Source: Phycisphaerae bacterium (GTDB lineage: Bacteria > Planctomycetota > Phycisphaerae > Sedimentisphaerales > Anaerohalosphaeraceae). Taken from it: a DNA stretch of 33,889 nt. The stretch lies in NCBI GenBank assembly GCA_029858345.1, contig JAOUFG010000017.1, positions 1-33,889 on the forward strand, given 5' to 3'. Positions 1,040 to 27,711 of this stretch are shown here, in pieces. The position numbers were made by a program, and so were the translations under genes. The notes under the pieces are model-generated. The model saw nothing but the letters and a program-made list of their open reading frames with translations, was not told the DNA's origin and did no database searches. Numbering within the stretch: position 1 is the first letter of the stretch; every line of letters starts with the position of its first letter.

Positions 1040-2842
1040 TTATGGCTTAAAGATAATTCCCTTGTTTTGCAGGAGGGTTTTGATGCTGCCCAGCGTTTCA
1101 TCCAGATCTGCCAGGTCGGGGATTTTCATCGCGAAATCAATATCGGTTGGTTCTTCACCCAGCCAGATCGGTTCAATCAGGTCGCTGTCCACCACATTTT
1201 GAATGATTTCCAGCTCTTTCTTCGTCAGACCGATGGCCGTAACCACCAAAATCACGCCGGCATCCAACAGAATGTTGGACACTTCGGCCAATCGCCGCAG
1301 ATGCTCTGGGCGATGTGTTTGGTCGGGACCAGGCTTTTTGATGTCCGCATCCACGCCGTACAGCACATTGGCGATGCCCATAAAGTAAACCGTTTTACCA
1401 TCGGCGAACAGCTGCTGCTCAATGGCACGGGCCAGTGTTTTCTTCCCGGTGTTTCGTTTACCGGTAATGAGGATCAGGGCAGCCTTCTGGTTATAGCGTT
1501 CCCACCGCTGTTCCCGGCCAATGCTGCTACCGGTCCATTTCAGGTTACGCTGCATGACCTGCTGACGCATCTGCTGCTGGTCATCGGCCAGCGCTTCGCG
1601 AATGATGCCGCCGCCGCGAATCTCATACTCATCCACGATGACAAACCGTCCCGTCGCGGAAATGTCGTCAATTGCATCAAACGCGACGGCATGCTGGCAG
1701 CACAAAATGCATTCGGCAACGTCGTGATAGTCGATGCTGTCTTTTTGGCGTGCGGAACTTAGATCCGAGGCGTCCATGACACTGGTAATCTCTTCGATAC
1801 GCACCGGTTCTTTCACCGTTCCGACTTTCAGGATATAATCTTTACCCTTTTCCATCGGTTTTTTGCCCATCCAGAACAGATTGACGCGAAGTCGTTTGCT
1901 GACCTGAGGCGCGGGTTGGTCGGCTCGTGCGGCCATCTGGCCGCGTGCAATATAAATCTGCTGCTGGAGTGTAAAGCTGGCTGCGTTTCCGGCAGAAAAC
2001 TCTTTGGGAGACGGGGCGTTAAATCGCTCCAATGATTTTACAATGCTTCGTTTGCCTGACGGGTAGAAAACAACTTCGTCACCGACTGAAACCGTCCCGG
2101 TATCGACCGTTCCGGCGACCAGCCGCCGCTTGTCCCCGGCTTTGGTGAACTTATACACATCCTGTACCGGCATGCGGAAGGGCTTATCGACCGGCAGGGC
2201 TTCTTTTTGAAAGCTATCCAGCGACTCCAATACCGTTTGGCCGGTGTACCAAGGCATTTTATCGCTCAATGCCGCAATCGTATCGCCCTGCATACCACTG
2301 ACCGGCAGGAACGCTTTGGCCGTCAGGCCGATTCCATCTAAAAATGCCGTATATTCCCGAACAATCGAATCAAAAACCTGCTGGTCGTAGTTGACCAGAT
2401 CCATTTTGTTGACCAGTACCACCATCTGGCGGATGCCCAGCATGGAGATCATGTAGCCGTGCCGGCGGGAGTTTTCCCGGACACCTTCTTCGGCATCAAT
2501 CACCAGCAAGGCCGCTTCGGCATGCGAGGCGCCCGTGACCATATTTTTCAAAAACTCGATATGCCCGGGTGCGTCAATGATGATGTAATGCCGCTTGGGC
2601 GTCTTAAAAAAGACGCGGGCCGCATCAATGGTAATCCCTTGCGACTGCTCATCCTTGAGGGCATCCAGCAGAAACGCGTATTCAAACGGCTTGCTGTTTC
2701 GCCGACAGGTTTCTTTGACCTGCGCCAGTTTGCCCTTCGGCAGCGAATCGGTATCGGCCAGCAGTCGCCCAATGACAGTGCTTTTGCCGTGATCTACATG
2801 TCCGGCAATAACGATATTCATTTGCTCATTTTTATTTGTCAT
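1040..2842 (-). CDS. cysN: Sulfate adenylyltransferase GTPase subunit CysN with fused CysC-like domain
   Basis: Large subunit of ATP sulfurylase, 600 aa from ATG 2842. It uses GTP to drive APS formation by CysD. The N-terminal GTPase shows the P-loop GHVDHGKS (14-21), DAPGH (90-94) and NKMD (145-148), followed by EF-Tu-like beta-barrel domains. From about residue 445 there is an APS-kinase-like domain with a P-loop-like GKRNTGKKT (about 461-469) and a recognisable [14 protein letters not shown] helix. The DGD motif of APS kinase is replaced by an MGIAN segment, so this part looks catalytically degenerate; a separate intact cysC exists at 3941. An upstream in-frame start (2899) would overlap DUF2061 much further. 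ATG 2842 overlaps its stop by 11 nt. Confidence 0.9.
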
Positions 2843-3056
2843 ACGGTACCAATCCCCAAGAAATTCGTGCCCATGCCCGTTCATGACTGTAATAGACAAT
2901 CATCTTGATAAAAAACTCCGCACCTCCGATAGCCAGCGCGGTATTGACTTGTCCGGTGCCGATCCAGACCAGTATCATGGTCGTTAAGGTCGCCAAAATA
3001 CGCCAACTGAACGATTTGGCAATCGATCGGGACGGTCTTGCATGTTGTTTCATCAT
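2832..3056 (-). CDS. DUF2061 small membrane protein
   Basis: A 74-aa protein of the DUF2061 family, recognised by the [17 protein letters not shown] start, a hydrophobic segment (about residues 22-45), and the [12 protein letters not shown] end. Two membrane-spanning stretches are likely. The function is unknown; family members recur beside sulfate-activation genes. The start overlaps the cysD stop by one base (TAATG), and the end overlaps cysN, so translation is probably coupled. The location inside the cys operon is direct observation; a role in sulfate metabolism is inference. Confidence 0.8.
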
Positions 3057-3937
3057 TACATATATCCTTCACGTCTGAGTGTTTCCAGACCGCCTCCGTC
3101 TTCGGCATCCTGTGCCCGGCCGGAGCGTTCGGCGATGTTCGACAAGTGGCCGCTGCGAAGTTCTTCGACAATGTCTTTCGGATTTTTTGCCTGCGACTCA
3201 ATCGGGAACGTGCAGGGATAGCACCCCAGAGAACGAAACCGTTTTCCGTCACCCTGATCATAGTACAGCGAAACCGTTGGGATCTTTTCCCGGTCGATAT
3301 ATTCCCAGATATTCAACTCGGTCCAGTCCAGCAGCGGATGGACCCGTACATGTGTGCCTGGGGCAAAGTCGGTCTTGAACTGGTTCCAGAATTCCGGCGG
3401 CTGGTCGGCAATATCCCATTCATTCTGCCGGTCGCGCGGTGAAAAATAGCGTTCCTTGGATCGTGACCCTTCCTCATCCGCCCGCAGACCGACAATCACA
3501 CCGGTAAACGGCTCGGTGTTGGCATCGACTTCATACCGACCCAGTGCATGATTGAACCGGTATCGGGGCCACTGTCCGCTGAGCGTATGTTTCAGCGCCT
3601 CGGTCTTGAGCAGCTTGCAGCAGGTCAGCCGGTCGGCGTTACCATCGGGAAAGGTCTTCCTGGTGTCCAGCGCTTCGCGGTTTTCGCCATAAACCATATC
3701 CAGATGCCACTCTTTCGTCAGTCGATCCCGGTACTCAATCATCTCCGGGATTTTGTAATGCGTATCGATATGCACCAGCGGAAACGGTACATGCCCGCCA
3801 AAGGCCTTCCGCGCCAGCCACAAGAGAACGGTGCTGTCCTTGCCGATAGACCAGAGCATACACAAGCTCTTGAAGTTGGCATACGCTTCCCGCAGAATAT
3901 GAACGCCCAAACTTTCCAGATGATCCAAATGATCCAC
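3056..3937 (-). CDS. cysD: Sulfate adenylyltransferase small subunit CysD
   Basis: ATP sulfurylase catalytic subunit of the PAPS-reductase-like fold, 293 aa, close to the usual length. It adenylylates sulfate to APS together with CysN. The PP-loop SIGKDST lies at residues 30-36. Other family landmarks are [31 protein letters not shown], the [10 protein letters not shown] segment and the [10 protein letters not shown] cysteine-containing stretch. The start codon is GTG at 3937, with AGGA seven bases upstream inside the end of cysC. It is separated from cysC by 3 bp and overlaps DUF2061 by one base. Confidence 0.95.
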
Positions 3938-3940
3938 GTG

Positions 3941-4477
3941 CTAATCCTGTAAATAAGGTTTCAAATAATCCATAATTTGTGTCATCGACTGCTCAACTGT
4001 CTGATGTTCCGTATCCACTGTAATTTCCGGCTGATTCGGTTCTTCATACGGGTCATCAATGCCGGTAAATTCTTTGATTTCCCCGGCCAGCGCCTTTTTA
4101 TACAGACCCTTCACGTCACGCCGTTGGCACTCGTCCAGCGAGCTCTTGACATACACTTCGATAAAATGACCGCACAGGTTTCGGACAAAATCCCGTGCCG
4201 CCCGATACGGTGAAATAAACGATGCAATGACAATTACGCCGTGATGTTCCAACCGCGAGGCCATAAAGCCGACCCGCCTGATATGCTCGTCGCGGGCTTC
4301 TTTGGAAAAACCGGTATTCGGAAAAACTCCCCGCAGAATGTCTCCGTCCAGGCGTTCGACTTTTTTGCCCAACCGCTCTAAATGCTCGTGAAGCTGTTCG
4401 GCAAGCGTACTTTTGCCGGAGCCGGACAGCCCCGTCAGCCACAGTACGAATCCTTCTTGTTTTTTGTTCTGACTCAA
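3941..4477 (-). CDS. cysC: Adenylylsulfate kinase (APS kinase) CysC
   Basis: Phosphorylates APS to PAPS, 178 aa, full family length. The Walker A motif GLSGSGKST is at 16-24, the DGD motif at 44-46, and the FSKEARDEHIRRVGFMA and FISPYRAARD segments are intact, so this copy looks active, unlike the CysC-like tail of CysN. The start codon is TTG at 4477 with AGAGG eight bases upstream. It is the first gene of the operon. Because CysC and CysQ are both present, the module can feed PAPS-dependent sulfotransferases, but no sulfotransferase is seen in this window. Confidence 0.93.
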   Translation of the reverse strand: MSQNKKQEGFVLWLTGLSGSGKSTLAEQLHEHLERLGKKVERLDGDILRGVFPNTGFSKEARDEHIRRVGFMASRLEHHGVIVIASFISPYRAARDFVRNLCGHFIEVYVKSSLDECQRRDVKGLYKKALAGEIKEFTGIDDPYEEPNQPEITVDTEHQTVEQSMTQIMDYLKPYLQD

Positions 4478-5030: not shown

Positions 5031-6218
5031 ATGACAAAATATAAACTGGCGTTTGTAATTGAACGGTATTTTGAGTTTGGCGGCCTGCAGCGTGACATGC
5101 GGCGGTTTGCTCTTGTGTGCGCACAGGCGGGCCATGCGGTCACGGTCTTTACCGGCCGATGGGACGGTCCCGATGAGCCAACACTTAAGGTTCAAATCAT
5201 CGATTTCAGGACGTCGTCGAATCATGGGACAATGCAAAAGCTGGATTGCTTTGTCCGAAATCTCAGAAAGCAACGAGACTTTGACTGCATTGTCGGGTTT
5301 AATCGAGTCGGAGGCCTGGACGTCTACTTTGGAGGTGATCTTTGTCTCAAAGGGAAACTGCAACACCAGCATCGCATGTGGTTACGTTTTCTGCCGCGAT
5401 ATCGTGCCTATCTCCAGTTGGAAGCAAGTGCCTTTGGCCCGACCAGCAACACAGAATTGATGCTGATTTGCCCATCCGAAGCAGAGTCGATTCGCCGAAT
5501 TTATAGTATCGCAACGAATCGCATCCACTTATTGCCGCCGGGAATTGACCGCAACAGGCTTATCGCAAACCCATTGACCGCCGAAGAAAGAAATGAATTT
5601 CGCAAGACATTCGGCGTTTCGGAAGATGAACTCATGATTCTGACCGTGGGTTCGAGTTTTCATACCAAGGGCATCGACCGGGGCATTTATGCCATCGCCG
5701 CTCTGTCGGATAATCTCAAAAAATGCTGCCGGTATGTTGTGGTCGGTCAAGGTAATAACAAAAAGTTTCATGCCATTGCCCGAAAGGCAGGTATCGGCAA
5801 CCGGGTCCAATTCACAGGTGGCCGTAAGGATGTCCCGAATTTTTACTATGCCGCCGATCTGCTGATCCACCCTGCACGAACAGAAACGACCGGCAGCGTC
5901 CTGCTGGAAGCATTGGTGGCTGGATTACCTGTCATAGCAACCGGGAACTGCGGGTACGCGCATTATATCCAGAAAGCGGGTGGCGGGATCGTTTGCACAG
6001 AACCATTTGACCATACGCGGTTCAATTACTTGCTCGGGGATATCCTGACCAACGATAAACGACGAGCGGAGTATGGTAAAAACGGCAGTGAATACTGCCA
6101 AAACGCCGATATTTACAGTATGGTCGAAAAAGGCGTTGAAATCATCGTCAACCGTGCAAAGAAGAATCGAGAAAAAATAGGAACCACGAAAAACACAAAT
6201 GGCCACGAATATTGTTAA
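5031..6218 (+). CDS. waaG: WaaG-like LPS core glycosyltransferase (GT4)
   Basis: GT-B glycosyltransferase of family GT4, 395 aa from ATG 5031. It strongly resembles enterobacterial WaaG (RfaG), the UDP-glucose:(heptosyl)LPS alpha-1,3-glucosyltransferase acting on the inner face of the membrane. Landmarks are the N-terminal FEFGGLQRDMRR segment, VGFNRVGGLDVYF, LPPGIDRNR, and the donor-site stretch TETTGSVLLEALVAGLPVI followed by NCGYAHYI. An in-frame ATG at 4980 exists, but family alignment favours 5031; its AAGAAAG ribosome site is weak. The last dozen residues are encoded by a dispersed ACCACGAA-type repeat. First gene of the rightward LPS-core operon, next to waaP as in enterobacteria. The exact acceptor sugar is unproven. 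Confidence 0.9.
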   Translation: MTKYKLAFVIERYFEFGGLQRDMRRFALVCAQAGHAVTVFTGRWDGPDEPTLKVQIIDFRTSSNHGTMQKLDCFVRNLRKQRDFDCIVGFNRVGGLDVYFGGDLCLKGKLQHQHRMWLRFLPRYRAYLQLEASAFGPTSNTELMLICPSEAESIRRIYSIATNRIHLLPPGIDRNRLIANPLTAEERNEFRKTFGVSEDELMILTVGSSFHTKGIDRGIYAIAALSDNLKKCCRYVVVGQGNNKKFHAIARKAGIGNRVQFTGGRKDVPNFYYAADLLIHPARTETTGSVLLEALVAGLPVIATGNCGYAHYIQKAGGGIVCTEPFDHTRFNYLLGDILTNDKRRAEYGKNGSEYCQNADIYSMVEKGVEIIVNRAKKNREKIGTTKNTNGHEYC

Positions 6219-6250
6219 CCACAGATTACACAGATTGACACAGATTCTAA
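6181..6250 (+). repeat. Dispersed ACCACGAA / CCACAGATTACACAG repeat
   Basis: The stretch contains GAACCACGAAAAACACAAAT followed by TTAACCACAGATTACACAG. Similar low-complexity blocks are scattered through many environmental bacterial genomes. A partner lies at 7206-7235. The repeat supplies the tail and stop codon of the preceding waaG-like gene. Confidence 0.7.
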
Positions 6251-6359
6251 GCCGCTTGTCGGATTGGCGTCCTTGCTGTCCAAAACGAAAGGAATCCTTC
6301 GAAGAGAACTTCTGCTTTTCCCTTACGATTTTGTTCAGTGGCTTAACAACCCAAGCGGT

Positions 6360-6388
6360 CAGATATCAGAAGTCAGTAGTCAGAAGCC
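6360..6388 (+). repeat. Dispersed AGTCAGTAGTCAGAAG-type repeat
   Basis: The run of TCAGAAGTCAG and AGTAGTCAGAAG is shared with about 4819-4830 and 9945-9956. Each copy sits just upstream of a gene start in the waa operon, which makes automatic start calls in this region run too long. Confidence 0.6.
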
Positions 6389-6398
6389 GAGGAAATGG

Positions 6399-7241
6399 AT
6401 GATTGAGATATACCCGGATTATAAAGAGATTTTTAAGTCGTTCAAAAGCGTCGATGATTTCCTGAAGATCGATATTGATATCGTTCGGGATTTTAAGAAC
6501 CGCAAGACGGGTCGATTTTTCATCGACGGCAAAGGATTTTATATTAAAAAGCATTTTGAGTGTGGGATCGGTGCGATACTAGATGAACTTTTCCACCTGA
6601 GAAAACCGCACATCGGAGCCGGTCATGAGCGGGCCCTTCTGGACAGACTTCGCACTATCGGTATTGATACAATGGCGGTTGCCGCATTCGGTCAGGATGG
6701 CAAGATACTTTCCACCCAACGCTCTTTTTTGGTTACAGAAGAATTGACAAATGTTGCCAGTCTCGAAGATATCTGTGCTCGATGGCGAACAAAACCGCCA
6801 ACCACGGTAATTAAAAAAGCGTTGCTGCAAAAAGTTGCCGAAATTGCAAAAACACTGCATAACAGCGGGATCAATCACCGGGATTTTTACCTGTGCCATT
6901 TTCTGATGGATACGGGCAATCTGCAGGCAGCTGAGATGGGGAAACAGCCGCCGACACTTTATCTAATGGATTTGCATCGTGCTCAGCAGCGAAACGAAGT
7001 ACCCTTTCGCTGGCGGGTCAAGGATATCGGCGGGTTGTATTTTTCAGCCATGGATATCGAATTGAATCGAACCGATCTGTTTCGGTTTATGACGCTGTAC
7101 ACCGGAAAATCGCTGCGGCAGACTTTACACGAGGACCGGGGTTTCTGGAAAGCCGTCCGGCGGCGAGCGGTTTGGACCTATCGGCGAGATTTCGGTAAAA
7201 ACCCTGAACCACGAATAGCACGAATGGACACGAAAAAATAA
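6399..7241 (+). CDS. waaP: WaaP (RfaP)-like LPS core heptose kinase
   Basis: Kinase-fold enzyme of 280 aa that in enterobacteria phosphorylates heptose I of the LPS inner core using ATP. It matches WaaP along its length: KTGRFFIDGKGFYIKKHF with K50 and K51 for ATP binding, a helix-C glutamate near E77, catalytic NHRDFYLCHFL at 159-169 with D162, metal-binding DLHRAQ with D181, and RWRVKDIGGLYFSAMD. ATG 6399 is chosen because GAGGA lies five bases upstream and WaaP proteins start here; the longer in-frame start at 6264 would add 45 residues partly encoded by the AGTCAGTAG repeat. The C-terminal tail from about residue 269 is also repeat-encoded. It follows waaG, a classic core-biosynthesis pairing. 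Confidence 0.9.
   Translation: MIEIYPDYKEIFKSFKSVDDFLKIDIDIVRDFKNRKTGRFFIDGKGFYIKKHFECGIGAILDELFHLRKPHIGAGHERALLDRLRTIGIDTMAVAAFGQDGKILSTQRSFLVTEELTNVASLEDICARWRTKPPTTVIKKALLQKVAEIAKTLHNSGINHRDFYLCHFLMDTGNLQAAEMGKQPPTLYLMDLHRAQQRNEVPFRWRVKDIGGLYFSAMDIELNRTDLFRFMTLYTGKSLRQTLHEDRGFWKAVRRRAVWTYRRDFGKNPEPRIARMDTKK
7206..7235 (+). repeat. Dispersed ACCACGAA repeat, second copy
   Basis: GAACCACGAATAGCACGAAT and the following bases align with 6181-6210. It is read in a different frame from the first copy and forms the end of the waaP coding region. Confidence 0.7.
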
Positions 7242-7318
7242 GTGTTCGGCTTTATTGATTTGGCTCAAAGGCTTTGCCTCAGGGTGGTTTACAGCACTAA
7301 CGGCTATCATGAAAAAGA

Positions 7319-7383
7319 GGCTCAGAGCCCCAGCGAATGAAACTCAAAAGAGCGTCCCGATGAATCGGGACTGTTTTGAGTTT
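7319..7383 (+). repeat. Palindromic leader element B with two-tier hairpin
   Basis: GGCTC and GAGCC face each other around A7324, followed by CAGCGA. Then comes a perfect 10-bp stem AAACTCAAAA (7340-7349) / TTTTGAGTTT (7374-7383), enclosing a second stem GTCCCG (7354-7359) / CGGGAC (7366-7371) with a six-base loop. It ends 17 bp before the double-kinase start at 7401. It resembles element A at 4869. It could attenuate, protect an mRNA end, or be a mobile palindrome. Confidence 0.6.
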
Positions 7384-7400
7384 TAACAAAAGCAATTTGA

Positions 7401-8924
7401 ATGACGAATAATAAGAACAAGTTGAAGGATTATGTGAGGATCCGTGAGGGCGGATGGAGCGGTTGTGTCCATGTCAACTTTCAGGATATGCCCTTATCCT
7501 GCCTGGTGGATCCGGACTGTTTGGATGAGCGTCGAAGCCCTTTTGAAAAGGTCCGGTCCTCGGATACCGCGGAGGTTTATCGCTATTCGATTACAATGCA
7601 GAACCGGGAGGAATCGCTGTATTTGAAAAAATTTCCTCACCGTTCTCTGGCAGATGCGATCAGGCACCTGTTTCGTCCCAGCCGTGCCAAAAGGGCTTTT
7701 CGAGCCGCACTGACACTTGAACAGAATGGTCTCTCTACGCCGCGGATCATCGCATTATTGCAAAAAAAAGGCGGCATTTTGAATACAGAGGACATTCTAG
7801 TCACACAAGGCATGACGAATTCAACTGCCCTTTCAGAGGTTCTGGCCTTTGCCCGGGCCAGCGGTGAACCAGCATCGCTCAAAAACCGACGACCCATGAT
7901 CACAGCATTTGGGCAAACGATTGCCCGAATGCATACGGCGGGAATCTGCCACGGCGATTTGCGATGGGGAAATATATTCGTTTCCGAGCAGAATTCTGAA
8001 TGGAAATTCTACCTCATCGATAATGAACGAACCCGGAAATATCCCATGCTGCCGTTCTGGCTGCGTCGAAAAAACCTCATCCAGCTCAATATTGGCACCG
8101 GCTGTCTGACACAAACTGACCGAAAACGATTCTGGAAGGCTTATATCCAAGCCGCCAATATTAGTTCCGCCCGTTCCAGGCGAATCGCGGCTTCTGTTTT
8201 CAAAAAAATGGACCGCCGCCTGAGAAAACGATCCCGAACGCATACGGGTATCACAAACAGCGCCTCCGGAACGCATTGGAAAGTTCAAAGTGCTCAGGCC
8301 GGCAACCTGAAAGGTTATTTATTAACTTCATTCTGCAGGGGTGATAAGGCCGCGGCTTTCCTGAAGCAGATCGAAACCCTGACCGAAACAGGAAATGTCC
8401 TGAAAAACGACACCGCCACACGGGTTGTTCGCTGCAGCTATAACAACCGGGATATTGTCATCAAACGATATAATCATCAGGGCCTGTGGCATTCACTGCG
8501 GCATACGATCAAGGGGAGCCGAGCGATGAAGTGCTGGCGGTTTGGACATGAATTGACCGCGTTAAACATTCCTTGTGCGGAGCCGATCGGGGTTGTTGAA
8601 GAGCGCAAATACGGGCTCATCTGGCAGTCTTATATTCTCAATGCCTTTGTCGACGGGCCGGATATCAGTCGCTATTTGCATCGGGAAGACCTGCCCGAAA
8701 ACAATAAGCAGCTGATGTTGGAAAAAACACGGGACTTGGCACTGAAACTGGCACAAAACAAGCTTATCCATAACGATCTTAAACCGTGCAACCTTTTGGT
8801 CCATGGTGAAACACCGGTTCTGATCGACCTGGACTCGATGCAAAAGCACCACAACCGGTGGGTACTGTCCCTGTATAAACGGAAAATGGATAATAAGATC
8901 AGGGAACGGATCTTAACCCTTTAG
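7401..8924 (+). CDS. Tandem LPS-kinase protein (two fused InaA/WaaP-like domains)
   Basis: A 507-aa protein with two kinase-fold domains of the LPS kinase (Kdo/WaaP/InaA) type joined in one chain. Domain 1 (about 55-270) has K76/K77, helix-C E107, catalytic HGDLRWGN at 184-191 and DNE at 207-209. Domain 2 (about 335-500) has K355, E384, HNDLKPCN at 457-464 and DLD at 476-478. Both therefore keep the lysine, catalytic aspartate, asparagine and metal aspartate, so both could be active. The joining segment is basic (KKMDRRLRKRSRT). The usual size for one such kinase is about 230-280 aa, so this is a fusion. No signal peptide or membrane segment; probably acts on the cytoplasmic face. Substrates are unknown; the operon suggests LPS core sugars. 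Confidence 0.8.
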   Translation: MTNNKNKLKDYVRIREGGWSGCVHVNFQDMPLSCLVDPDCLDERRSPFEKVRSSDTAEVYRYSITMQNREESLYLKKFPHRSLADAIRHLFRPSRAKRAFRAALTLEQNGLSTPRIIALLQKKGGILNTEDILVTQGMTNSTALSEVLAFARASGEPASLKNRRPMITAFGQTIARMHTAGICHGDLRWGNIFVSEQNSEWKFYLIDNERTRKYPMLPFWLRRKNLIQLNIGTGCLTQTDRKRFWKAYIQAANISSARSRRIAASVFKKMDRRLRKRSRTHTGITNSASGTHWKVQSAQAGNLKGYLLTSFCRGDKAAAFLKQIETLTETGNVLKNDTATRVVRCSYNNRDIVIKRYNHQGLWHSLRHTIKGSRAMKCWRFGHELTALNIPCAEPIGVVEERKYGLIWQSYILNAFVDGPDISRYLHREDLPENNKQLMLEKTRDLALKLAQNKLIHNDLKPCNLLVHGETPVLIDLDSMQKHHNRWVLSLYKRKMDNKIRERILTL

Positions 8925-8981
8925 GGCTGTATCCCTATACATCGAGACCCTCGGGTGCGGTATAACTTTAGGTCGCAGGTG

Positions 8982-9002
8982 ATCCCGGATCAAGTCCGGG
9001 AT
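8982..9002. repeat. Dispersed hairpin repeat (ATCCCGGA/TCCGGGAT)
   Basis: A perfect 8-bp stem, ATCCCGGA (8982-8989) and TCCGGGAT (8995-9002), with loop TCAAG, in the spacer between two kinase genes. Repeats of the form CCCGGATCAAGTCCGGG are common intergenic elements in many bacteria. No T-run follows, so it is not a classic terminator. Confidence 0.7.
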
Positions 9003-9047
9003 AAACTCCGCCGCGAAGAAATATAATATTAAAATCGAGATCAACTA

Positions 9048-9863
9048 ATGCAAGATAAAATCGTTTTTGAAACCGGTTGGGAGTCTTTTTTTGCATCGCA
9101 TCAATTGCATTGCTTTGACGGTTTTTTCAACTACGGCGAGGGGCGGACGATCAACGAGAATACCAAGCGGAACGTGGTTGTTCTCGAACTTGACGACAAC
9201 GGTCAACATCGCACATTTTATATGAAACGGTTTTCCCAGCCCCATTTTAAGGATATGCTGGCGGGTTTTATGTACCATGGCGCACTGTGCTCACAGGCAG
9301 AAGTGGAATGGCGGAACGCCAAAATACTGCTTGAACACGGCATCGAAACCTATCATCCGGTCTGCTATGGGGTCCAATCTCTCGCTGGAATCGAGCGGCG
9401 GTCCTTTTTTATTACTGAACAGATCGAGGGCCCCTGCCTGACGGACTACCTGGCAGAATCCTGGGCTTCTCTCGAAGAATCCCAGAGAAACGATCTGGTC
9501 ATCCGCCTGGGAAAACTCTTCCGGAAAATCCATTCCGCCCGAATCCGCCTGCCGGACTCCTATATCTGGCATGTCTATCGAGTCATGTCCGACACTGCCC
9601 CCGGCGGGTTTGAACTGGGCATGATCGATTTGCATCGGATGAAACTCCGACAAAGCGGAAATCGATCCGCGGCCAAGGATCTTGGCGCCTTTCTGTTCAG
9701 TCTGCCGGACGGCTTTATGGACGAAGCCCTCCGATCGGTGTTTATGGACAGTTATCTTGAGAACGGATCTATCCAAAATCAAAATGCTTTCAGCAGAAGA
9801 GTTAAGCAATGGGAAGAGAAAATATCAAACCGCCGGACGCGAGAACTGTCCAGTATTGTATGA
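9048..9863 (+). CDS. LPS kinase-like protein (Kdo kinase/InaA family)
   Basis: A 271-aa kinase-fold protein of the lipopolysaccharide kinase family, which phosphorylates Kdo or heptose in LPS cores. Visible elements are FYMK with K60, a helix-C EVEWRN segment with E87, FITEQIEGPCLTDYL in the hinge region, LPDSYIWHVYRV with catalytic-position D170 (the usual histidine is leucine here), and MIDLHRM with D194. The MIDLHR string links it to WaaP. It is the third kinase gene of the rightward operon. Start ATG 9048 has only a weak GAGAT ribosome site. Substrate unknown. Confidence 0.8.
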   Translation: MQDKIVFETGWESFFASHQLHCFDGFFNYGEGRTINENTKRNVVVLELDDNGQHRTFYMKRFSQPHFKDMLAGFMYHGALCSQAEVEWRNAKILLEHGIETYHPVCYGVQSLAGIERRSFFITEQIEGPCLTDYLAESWASLEESQRNDLVIRLGKLFRKIHSARIRLPDSYIWHVYRVMSDTAPGGFELGMIDLHRMKLRQSGNRSAAKDLGAFLFSLPDGFMDEALRSVFMDSYLENGSIQNQNAFSRRVKQWEEKISNRRTRELSSIV

Positions 9864-9935
9864 ATTTCGGCAAGATCGTCCCAATACACAAAAAACTTTT
9901 ATATGGATAAACAATTTAGAGCGAAGGTCAAATTC

Positions 9936-10952
9936 ATGGAAACTAGTAGTCAGAAGTCTAAACGTACAGTTAAATCTATGGCTGTGGTGCGTTTAACTGT
10001 ATTAGCAGTGGTATTTACAGCAATAGGCATATATCTCTATTTGAACTGGGAGAATTTTCTTGATGGTTTTGCAAGTCTTTCTGCGACAAAAATCACACTT
10101 GTATTTTTGGTAGATTTTTTATATTATATAGTCTCCGCTGTGATTATGATGAGCGTTCTTTTGCCGTATTCAATTCAGCTTGGCAAAATAGAATCGTTTG
10201 AAATAAGTATGGCTACTCGTTTCGGCAACCTGCTTATACCAATGCGCGGCGGAGCGGTTGCAAGAGCTGTATATCTCAATAAACGATATCAATTCTCTCC
10301 GGGGATGTTTATTGCGAGTTTGTCAGGTATGTTGCTGACTTCGATTTTTACAGGTTTGCTTTGGGTTTGTGCAGGATTGGTTCTCATAGGGATTCGTGAT
10401 GGCCTATGGTTTTCAAAACCGCTTTTACTGGTAACTTTTGGAATCATTGGATTGCTGGTTCTTGCAATGATTCGTGTCAGAATAAAAACATCTCACAACA
10501 AAATACTGGCATTTGTCGGGAATCTCGCTGAAGGATGGGTGAGATTCGCAAGTCACAAATCGTGTTTAATTAGACTTATTTTATGTTACAGCGCACTGAT
10601 CATTCTGCAAAGCTGTATTTATGGAATCATACTCAATACAGACGGCGTATCGGTTCCTTTGAACTATATAGTTGTCTTGGTCGCATTAGGCAATGTTTCA
10701 TTAGCATTTCAGATTACCCCGGGCAATGCCGGAGTATATGAAGGGTTATTGGCCGGGATATCCTCATTGATGGGCTTGGATTACCAAGCGGTATTGGCTG
10801 CAGGATTAACCTGGCGTGTAATTGACGCGGTATTTGTGTTTATCGTCGGAGGGCTTGCCAGCCGGCAATTAACCAGACGTTGCGACTCTTTCCTACAGTC
10901 CGAAAACGAATGCGACGATATAAAAGAGACCGCAGCAGAAACTCAATCGTAA
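9936..10952 (+). CDS. Flippase-like integral membrane protein (LPG synthase TM / UPF0104 family)
   Basis: A 338-aa polytopic protein with about seven to eight hydrophobic segments, starting with AVVRLTVLAVVFTAIGIYLYL. Landmarks of the lysylphosphatidylglycerol-synthase transmembrane (AglD-like) family are RFGNLLIPMRGGAVARAVYL, the ITPGNAGVYEGLLAG segment and the final WRVIDAVFVFIVGGLAS helix. Members are implicated in lipid-linked glycan handling, but the activity is not defined for this branch. ATG 9936 is preferred over 9903 because GAAGG lies eight bases upstream; the first codons are repeat-encoded (ACTAGTAGTCAGAAG). The AT-rich composition resembles the next block more than the kinase genes. 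It ends only 5 bp from the convergent GT39 gene. Confidence 0.8.
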   Translation: METSSQKSKRTVKSMAVVRLTVLAVVFTAIGIYLYLNWENFLDGFASLSATKITLVFLVDFLYYIVSAVIMMSVLLPYSIQLGKIESFEISMATRFGNLLIPMRGGAVARAVYLNKRYQFSPGMFIASLSGMLLTSIFTGLLWVCAGLVLIGIRDGLWFSKPLLLVTFGIIGLLVLAMIRVRIKTSHNKILAFVGNLAEGWVRFASHKSCLIRLILCYSALIILQSCIYGIILNTDGVSVPLNYIVVLVALGNVSLAFQITPGNAGVYEGLLAGISSLMGLDYQAVLAAGLTWRVIDAVFVFIVGGLASRQLTRRCDSFLQSENECDDIKETAAETQS

Positions 10953-16868: not shown

Positions 16869-17612
16869 CTACCTGCCCGCTGAAGACATGCTGCATGTGC
16901 TACTGGAAAAACAATCACTGTAGGATTGCATCACGATATTAATGTGATCCTCATTGAAATCGGACAAATCCCGCCGGATGCGTCGAAAGGACCGATTCAG
17001 TGCTTGTCGTGCTTTAATCGTCGACCGGAAGCGAGGATACGGGTGCCGGGTTTCGCGATCGATCATCACCAGTGAGCCCTGATTGATGTCGGTAACGATA
17101 ATATCCTTCAGACGCAGCGAGCCATAGAACCCATGCCGATGCAACCTGGCCAGCAGTGCCCCGTAAGACCGCAAAAGCCGCAGTTCATGGTCCTGTACGT
17201 CTGCCAGGTTCAAGGCCTGGTCTAGACGGGTGCCCTTGACTTCATCAACCAGAATAAAGCCAAGCTGTGGAAATCCCAATTTCCGCTGCTCTCCGGCGGC
17301 GATGTAATTCATTGCCGGAAGCTGAAATTGGTGCAGCGAGCAGATGTGAAGATACTCCGTAAAAGGAGCTGTATGAGCACGTCGGCCCGACAGACACGAC
17401 TCAATCGATTTTGCGACTGAACTGGTCAGCCGTCGCTTCAAATAGGCCGTTCGGCCGTGCCCTTCAATCCGGCGGATGTCGGCTTTTTGGTTTTTTTCCA
17501 TTACACAACCCACATCCCCAAACATTAACCGCTCAAAAGACACCAGCCCCATTTGTGTCAACCACGAATGGTATCCATCATTTAGAATGAATTTAATATT
17601 TCCTTTGATCAT
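16869..17612 (-). CDS. LPS-kinase-like protein with degraded catalytic motif
   Basis: A 247-aa kinase-fold protein of the lipopolysaccharide kinase family. It keeps an ATP-lysine candidate (YLKRRL, K59), helix-C E86, a hinge-like FILVDEVKG, and the metal motif DRE at 175-177. The catalytic HGDLxxxN loop reads YGSLRLKD (153-160): histidine, the catalytic aspartate and the asparagine are all replaced. It may be a pseudokinase, or use another residue. A longer TTG start at 17648 has no ribosome site and lies next to a TATAAT that would start transcription inside it, so ATG 17612 is preferred. It stands alone between two promoter-like regions and is not part of the waa operon. Confidence 0.65.
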   Translation of the reverse strand: MIKGNIKFILNDGYHSWLTQMGLVSFERLMFGDVGCVMEKNQKADIRRIEGHGRTAYLKRRLTSSVAKSIESCLSGRRAHTAPFTEYLHICSLHQFQLPAMNYIAAGEQRKLGFPQLGFILVDEVKGTRLDQALNLADVQDHELRLLRSYGALLARLHRHGFYGSLRLKDIIVTDINQGSLVMIDRETRHPYPRFRSTIKARQALNRSFRRIRRDLSDFNEDHINIVMQSYSDCFSSSTCSMSSAGR

Positions 17613-17650
17613 TCCAAGTGTTTCGTGAATTAGGGTTCTTCTACTCAATC

Positions 17651-23320: not shown

Positions 23321-24253
23321 TTAGACCTGTTTATTAAATGAAAGATTGTAAAACATTCTCTGGAAGAATTTCCTGGGCTGGCGAAACGGGAACCGAATCG
23401 CATCTTCCACACGCTGCCTCCGGTAATTATCCATGAGCAAACGGTAGAGTTCATCTCGGCTAATCGCATCGTCGACTCCAACTTCCCGCTCGACCGCAAC
23501 TCTCTGCTCCTCGGTTATTGCAACTTCCGGATAAGTCGAAAAAAGTTTTTGAATATATGCACCGAATTCGCCCTCTTTTACAATTCTTTCTGAAGGGTTC
23601 TTCTTGCCAATATACCTGATGCTTGCCCGGGGACCATAGATAAAAAACGGGACCCTCATTTCGACCGCATAGAACAGATAAGAACCAAAAGCATTGGAGG
23701 TTGCGTATTTGCAATGACGCAGTATGTCGTAAAATTTATCCACAAAATCCGGCTTTTCTCTGACCCCCGCTGTCACGATCTCAAAGCCCTGTTCTCTGTA
23801 TATGTTGTCAAAACCATGCAAAAAATCATGCTCATGGACACAGACCTTGATGGGGTGGAATTCATCAGACAATTCCTTCAATTTTTTACTATACTCTCGC
23901 CGATCAAACACCCCTTCTTCTTTCGGGGTGGAATGCATTGGAAAAGCAACTGTTCCGTCTGCATCTTTAGCCGGGTTAATGTTTCTAAGTCTTCGATACT
24001 GAACAAACGGCGAACCAATAATGTAGGCCGGCTTCTTTGAATATCGCTGCCATGTATCAAATCTGCGTTTGTTATAAACCAACATCAATCTTTTTTTACT
24101 CCTCAGATCATTTGTCGGTTTGTCATCGAAAGGAGTATGCCCATGCTCATAGCGACACGGTAAAGGTCTGTCCTCAGGGAACCCGGACATCAGCCGTATA
24201 ATTCGATTTAAGCTGTATTTTCGGTCTTCATCAAATATCGCTGTTTGATCCAT
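23321..24253 (-). CDS. Uncharacterised protein, possible glycosyltransferase
   Basis: A 310-aa protein with no family I can name securely. Visible features are a PLPCRYEHGHTPFDD segment near the N-terminus, hydrophobic strands such as AYIIGSPFVQY and KVCVHEHDFLHGF, a KYATSNAFGSYLFYAVEMRVPFFIYGP stretch that looks like the acceptor/donor face of a GT-B fold, and a basic C-terminal end (RFPFRQPRKFFQRMF). No signal peptide. Its location between pseB and spsF suggests a transferase for the nonulosonic acid. ATG 24253 is preferred over 24283, which lacks a ribosome site. Confidence 0.6.
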   Translation of the reverse strand: MDQTAIFDEDRKYSLNRIIRLMSGFPEDRPLPCRYEHGHTPFDDKPTNDLRSKKRLMLVYNKRRFDTWQRYSKKPAYIIGSPFVQYRRLRNINPAKDADGTVAFPMHSTPKEEGVFDRREYSKKLKELSDEFHPIKVCVHEHDFLHGFDNIYREQGFEIVTAGVREKPDFVDKFYDILRHCKYATSNAFGSYLFYAVEMRVPFFIYGPRASIRYIGKKNPSERIVKEGEFGAYIQKLFSTYPEVAITEEQRVAVEREVGVDDAISRDELYRLLMDNYRRQRVEDAIRFPFRQPRKFFQRMFYNLSFNKQV

Positions 24254-24306
24254 TTGACACTTTCTCGTAGGACATTTACTCAAACATCAAAATATTATTC
24301 AACCTT

Positions 24307-27531: not shown

Positions 27532-27711
27532 TTAAAGTTAGCTTTCGCACTTTTGAAAAGTACAAAATCGGCTTTTACGGCACCAAAAAGGGGGTTTTGA
27601 ATTAATGCCACTTTCGGAAAAAGCCCCGAAAGTGCTAAAAAATCATAAAAGTAACCTATAGGCCAGTTTGCCTATCTTTACATTTTAAAAAAGTGCGAAA
27701 CTTAACTTAAA
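27532..27711. mobile_element. 180-bp MITE-like element with 23-bp terminal inverted repeats
   Basis: The left end (27532-27554, ending TTTCGCACTTTT) and the reverse complement of the right end (27711-27689) match at 20 of 23 positions. Inside is a second perfect inverted repeat, CACTTTCGG (27609-27617) and CCGAAAGTG, so the whole can fold into a nested cruciform. It lies between rmlB and the exporter gene. No T-run suited to termination and no coding frame. It is unlike the element at 17675 in sequence. Confidence 0.55.

Follow-up and report, generated by a model that had tools for sequence, protein, structure and literature searches.

LPS-core kinases in Pseudomonas and a probable counterpart in a planctomycete

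In Pseudomonas aeruginosa, genes of the lipopolysaccharide (LPS) core are arranged in the operon waaF-waaC-wapG-waaP-wapP-wapQ-PA5006 (PMC8707732, PMC8005017), and the Pseudomonas core that goes with this layout carries phosphates at HepI O2/O4 and HepII O6 (PMC8005017). For the WaaP kinase of this species, the change of K51, H161, D163, Y165, H168, or R191 to Ala, or the D188N substitution, has been found to end growth support, and R162A is tolerated (PMC6147952). Described here is a similar group of genes in a window of 33,889 nucleotides (the whole stretch of DNA that was analysed) from a planctomycete of the Sedimentisphaerales (Phycisphaerae, Planctomycetota), the genome of which is 3.0 Mb in size and 99% complete. 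LPS in the Planctomycetota has long been disputed. The finding that lpx genes are essential supports its existence there (PMC10632474), and little on the planctomycete LPS core was found in the literature.

On the plus strand of the window, 5031-9863 holds a GT4 glycosyltransferase, WaaP, a two-domain protein (the double kinase), and a gene for a fourth kinase domain (the 9048 gene, or LPD kinase, after the wording of its catalytic loop). Taken together, the results make it probable that this is an LPS-core kinase cluster organised like Pseudomonas wapG-waaP-wapP-wapQ-PA5006; that its GT4-WaaP pair, which is of proteobacterial type, replaced a pair resident in the order; that WaaP, the double kinase, and the LPD kinase phosphorylate the core; and that a fifth domain, lying further along the window, is a pseudokinase. 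The evidence consists of family membership, catalytic residues, clades, synteny, and deletion scars in relatives, from which the substrates, the order of phosphorylation, the direction of transfer, and the loss in the window genome are deduced.

Because its layout and content match those of the Pseudomonas operon, the system is known in kind: in both, a GT4 gene is followed by waaP and then by more kinases of the Pfam LPS-kinase family PF06293, among them one two-domain protein. However, the planctomycete cluster is without heptosyltransferases, a carbamoyltransferase, or a WapP/WapQ orthologue, its double kinase has a different N-terminal half, and it includes an LPD-type WaaP paralogue. Related gene orders occur elsewhere in the proteobacteria: in a Halopseudomonas locus (L143), GT4, WaaP, WapP, and WapQ are followed by a double kinase of 473 aa and then by a gene resembling a carbamoyltransferase, four of these genes encoding five kinase domains between them, and GT4-WaaP-double kinase is found in Methylophaga, Accumulibacter, and other Gammaproteobacteria. 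(G and L codes denote the relatives' genomes and loci that were compared, and G000 the window's own genome; all but a few of the relatives are metagenome assemblies, in which genes are named by similarity and gene order.)

The WaaP gene and its GT4 partner

By family, residues, and clade, the gene at 6399-7241 is a true WaaP, with a predicted role as heptose(I) kinase. It scores 289 bits against the NCBIfam RfaP equivalog (cut-off 170) and matches the solved WaaP structure 6dfl at E=9.3e-51 (E-values here are reckoned per genome). Its catalytic residues are complete (YIKK, HRDFYLCH, MDLHR), and since every residue required in P. aeruginosa WaaP is kept, the protein is intact by that measure; it differs from the 6dfl protein in its planctomycete host. 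ATG 6399 is a likelier start than TTG 6264, and relatives begin at the ATG position. In the domain tree, which is unrooted and weakly resolved in its deep part, this WaaP branches inside the clade of proteobacterial WaaP proteins (99/96), apart from the WaaP-like kinases resident in the order (100/99). Furthermore, the GT4 protein groups with proteobacterial WaaG/WapG, beside an Acidiferrobacteraceae row and apart from the resident GT4. An assembly mix-up was considered and is unlikely, as relatives of the double kinase, the LPD kinase, and an ABC transporter are found within the same order. WaaP would most likely act at the cytoplasmic face of the inner membrane, beside its GT4 partner, and there phosphorylate the first heptose of the core.

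Probable displacement of a resident kinase-GT4 pair

In most of the order's genomes that were examined, HldE, GmhB, a heptosyltransferase (HepT), a diverged WaaP-like kinase, a GT4, and PlsY lie in a row, the resident kinase being about 25-38% identical to the window WaaP. A search of 59 genomes found a close WaaP in 7 and the resident kinase in 39, and in none were both present (Fisher p=2.3e-4, with kinship ignored). In two of the genomes with the close WaaP (G005, G021), HepT is followed immediately by PlsY; in a third, G004, all that is left of the resident pair is the final 66 codons of the GT4, in the 222 bases between HepT and PlsY. Family f5 shows other scars. The resident kinase of G047 is cut after the N-lobe, before the catalytic loop, and in G043 a 30-residue kinase fragment is joined to half of the GT4, whereas two other members of the family, G038 and G051, have both genes intact. 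What is new here is that genomes bearing the WaaP-GT4 pair have lost or truncated the resident kinase and glycosyltransferase, with scars that differ by lineage. An earlier note on this DNA, made from its sequence, had been silent on this loss and on the proteobacterial type of the GT4-WaaP pair.

One might suppose instead that there was no replacement, and that the close WaaP-GT4 pair and the resident pair are both ancestral and were lost differentially; the tree is, after all, unrooted, and five order members form one clade over three families. We regard this as quite improbable, given that the window WaaP falls inside the proteobacterial clade and not with the resident kinases, as does its GT4 relative to the resident one, that the differing scars stand beside intact loci in sister genomes, and that the WaaP of G047, a genome from a different family, is nested among those of the window's genus. 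Because of this last placement, the waaG-waaP pair would also have moved within the order, and G021 looks like a separate acquisition. The differing scars in different lineages support a functional replacement of the resident kinase by WaaP and, hence, heptose phosphorylation. Since the two kinases are mutually exclusive and the resident one lies in an ADP-heptose/heptosyltransferase locus, both most likely phosphorylate an inner-core heptose, as the gene exchange and the known reaction of WaaP suggest.

In several relatives (G038, G041, G048, G051, G053, G056; L228), the heptosyltransferase and the resident kinase are apparently one frame of about 620-670 aa, a possible fusion of consecutive steps.

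Five domains of one family

The earlier note had counted four kinase domains in three adjacent genes and a fifth some 7 kb away. The genes and catalytic-loop strings that it gave are correct, and the fifth domain lies 7.0 kb off on the opposite strand. All five domains exceed the PF06293 gathering cut-off of 21.3 bits (Table 1), and for each of them the best-scoring Pfam family is PF06293. The profile check that had been proposed in case the extra domains belonged to non-LPS families upheld the assignment; in each case the Pfam models for APH, RIO1, and protein kinases gave lower scores than PF06293, and an aminoglycoside or protein kinase identity was rejected on this ground. In a genome-wide search with PF06293, all four strong places were at 6459-9704 of the window contig, so the clustering is not due to chance; elsewhere in the genome, there were only two matches, both far under the cut-off. 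This search missed the marginal 16869 domain, and further marginal domains could likewise escape it.

The note's view that the domains are diverged rather than recent copies is borne out, because they are 23-33% identical pairwise (over local stretches) and form separate subfamilies in the domain tree; a recent duplication is ruled out on the same grounds. Its description of all five as having a kinase fold also stands. The name of kinase is doubtful for the fifth.

Table 1. Features of the kinase cluster and its surroundings in the window
Feature	Position	Strand	Basis
GT4 glycosyltransferase, WaaG/WapG type, WaaP partner	5031-6218	+	PF00534, 120.6 bits; longest ORF start 4980
WaaP, predicted LPS core heptose(I) kinase	6399-7241	+	PF06293, 135 bits; RfaP equivalog, PDB match, residues, clade
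Terminator-like hairpin between WaaP and double kinase	7340-7383		7-bp GC stem in 13-nt inverted arms, T run; pattern match only
Double kinase, N-half (HGDLRWGN...DNERT)	7401-8270	+	PF06293, 85 bits
Double kinase, C-half (IKRYN...HNDLKPCN...DLDSM), PA5006 C-terminal type	8271-8924	+	PF06293, 41.1 bits
WaaP-derived kinase, LPD/MPD subfamily	9048-9863	+	PF06293, 74.6 bits
Flippase-like membrane protein, putative role	9903-10952	+	PF03706, 88.2 bits; adjoins kinases, 39 bases past LPD kinase
PF06293-related domain (YGSLRLKD), predicted pseudokinase	16869-17648	-	PF06293, 23.5 bits, passes gathering score

The double kinase and the LPD kinase

A table of catalytic residues was drawn up for all collected domains, from the window and its relatives. 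By kinase rules, both halves of the double kinase are complete (HGDLRWGN/DNER and HNDLKPCN/DLDS), and the AF2 structure predicted for the full-length protein (pLDDT 85) has WaaP 6dfl as its best PDB match. Like PA5006, the protein consists of two PF06293 domains, and its C-half is of the same type, carrying the PA5006 C-terminal signature (IKRYN...DLD[AS]M) and grouping in the tree with PA5006-type C-domains of Halopseudomonas, Methylophaga, and Accumulibacter. The N-half, in contrast, has HGDLRxGN...DNERT in place of the QxDLHxGNFL of the PA5006 type and belongs to a different clade (13 N-type rows, SH-aLRT 100), the members of which are found either as a single gene after lpxD-lpxI or as a gene of their own next to a C-type one (G054, L145, L136). 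The window genome has no kinase after lpxD-lpxI. Other Sedimentisphaerales have the PA5006 pairing itself, QxDLHxGNFL with the C-type. The N-half was also considered as the Kdo kinase KdkA and rejected, its 46.3 bits being set against an NCBIfam cut-off of 142. In three gammaproteobacterial loci (L134:7704-9086, L139:7623-9122, L147:4019-5563), WaaP is fused to a PA5006-C-type domain, joining both functions.

In the product of the 9048 gene (LPDSYIWH/DLHR), the His and Arg of HRD are replaced, and the Asp, Tyr, His, and DLHR are kept; the LPD/MPD wording is also retained in its homologues. Measured against the P. aeruginosa WaaP mutants, this family differs at a single required residue (H161) and retains the others. 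The protein matches 6dfl at E=1.1e-9 and reaches 79.4 of the 170 bits for RfaP, with LPD rather than HRD; the LPD kinases form a clade of their own (100/100). The gene comes directly after WaaP in G047 and after a double kinase in G001. A further non-HRD variant is seen in other Phycisphaerae (L160-L163, L165-L169), where PF06293-like proteins have WPDxxxKH for HRDxYxCH.

Given their family and neighbourhood, the double kinase and the LPD kinase most likely add more phosphates to inner-core sugars, as has been proposed for WapP, WapQ, and PA5006. A different view would be that the LPS core is a substrate of WaaP alone and that these two phosphorylate other envelope glycans, such as a nonulosonate-containing polymer encoded downstream. 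The fifth domain does lie within a NeuB/WecB cluster, relatives of the LPD kinase in other genera are scattered singletons away from core genes, and neither the halves of the double kinase nor the LPD kinase reaches an equivalog cut-off. However, N-half relatives after lpxD-lpxI have a lipid A context, the C-type domain forms part of a WaaP fusion in the three loci above and lies beside WaaP in Pseudomonas-type operons, and the LPD kinase follows WaaP in G047 and a double kinase in G001; consequently, we think this view somewhat unlikely. The earlier note's suggestion of a core phosphorylated at several positions is, by analogy, plausible for the products of all three adjacent genes (WaaP, double kinase, LPD kinase), and it is not supported for the fifth domain, which has no catalytic Asp. 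Multi-site phosphorylation is a fair inference because the same layout in Pseudomonas goes with a multiply phosphorylated core.

The fifth domain

The 16869 gene stands in a nonulosonate/O-antigen cluster with WecB, NeuB, a cytidylyltransferase, and a hexapeptide transferase. Its domain (YGSLRLKD/IDRE) has Ser at the position of the catalytic Asp of HxD, and so does its sole close homologue (L196:3730-4452, from another family of the order; 53% identical, 39.5 bits, YASLRFKD). For this reason the domain is most likely, as judged from its residues, a pseudokinase, serving for binding or as a scaffold, rather than a fifth phosphotransferase. The structure model has a pLDDT of 54, and its fold matches (generic protein kinases) were not used as evidence. 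A distant homologue (L164:1363-2109, in G079) reads FQVVRLKD, likewise without the catalytic Asp.

It is conceivable that the domain is an active atypical kinase in which another residue serves for the catalytic Asp. The beta-3 Lys and the metal-binding Asp are retained, and two proteins filed as LPS kinases, E. coli InaA (HGC) and Halopseudomonas WapQ (HNC), are also without Asp at this position. This is unlikely, however, since D163A in P. aeruginosa WaaP gives no growth support (PMC6147952), and the Asp is missing from both the close and the distant homologue. The likeness to InaA and WapQ does not extend to the domain tree, in which InaA and WapQ pair (98) and the 16869 domain falls elsewhere with weak support. 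In both of those proteins (L195:2823-3473 and L143:7009-7785, respectively), it is Cys that occupies the position of the catalytic Asp.

Points to be set against a core kinase cluster acquired by replacement

The window genome has WaaA, three GT9 heptosyltransferases, and the HldE-GmhB-heptosyltransferase locus, and no strong PF06293 gene beyond the cluster. Several observations weigh against the interpretation favoured here. The resident locus of G000 ends at a contig end 243 bp past the heptosyltransferase, with nothing there convincingly like the resident kinase, and the deletion is seen in relatives only; it is from these that we infer the loss in the window genome itself. The HldE-like protein of the organism, with a score of 317, falls short of its cut-off of 345. 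Only WaaP exceeds its equivalog cut-off, the N-half, the C-half, and the LPD kinase belonging to subfamilies without tested members. In addition, the hairpin at 7340-7383 may divide the cluster into two transcripts. With this hairpin and the 180-base gap from GT4 to WaaP, a single operon is not assured. Beyond HepT in G000, there is a weak match to PlsY, which was discarded because it is on the wrong strand.

The hairpin is long, with A/T runs on its flanks, and is terminator-like on both strands.

Other features of the window

Sulfate activation genes occupy 1040-4477 (for a CysN-type GTPase that includes an APS kinase domain, for a protein with a PAPS-reductase domain, and, separately, for a second APS kinase), beside a gene of the inositol-monophosphatase family at 243-1019. 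In the sugar cluster, 23321-24283 encodes a 320-aa protein for which Pfam gave no match at E<=0.1. One intergenic stretch (27532-27711) contains two imperfect inverted repeats (35-nt and 23-nt arms), which may be the relic of a small mobile element.

Meaning for the planctomycete envelope

A broader hypothesis, tentative and in our view possible rather than probable, is that heptose kinase and GT4 form an exchangeable module in planctomycetes, the resident pair having been displaced several times by a proteobacterial-type waaG-waaP, and that the order has evolved LPD/MPD and Asp-less subfamilies as atypical or pseudo-kinases in LPS assembly. The natural replacements suggest a function for the resident kinase-GT4 pair, by way of its exchange with a characterised one. 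With a heptose locus, a WaaP that satisfies a strict profile, and the loss of the resident kinase where WaaP arrived, a phosphorylated heptose core becomes a concrete prediction for these planctomycetes.

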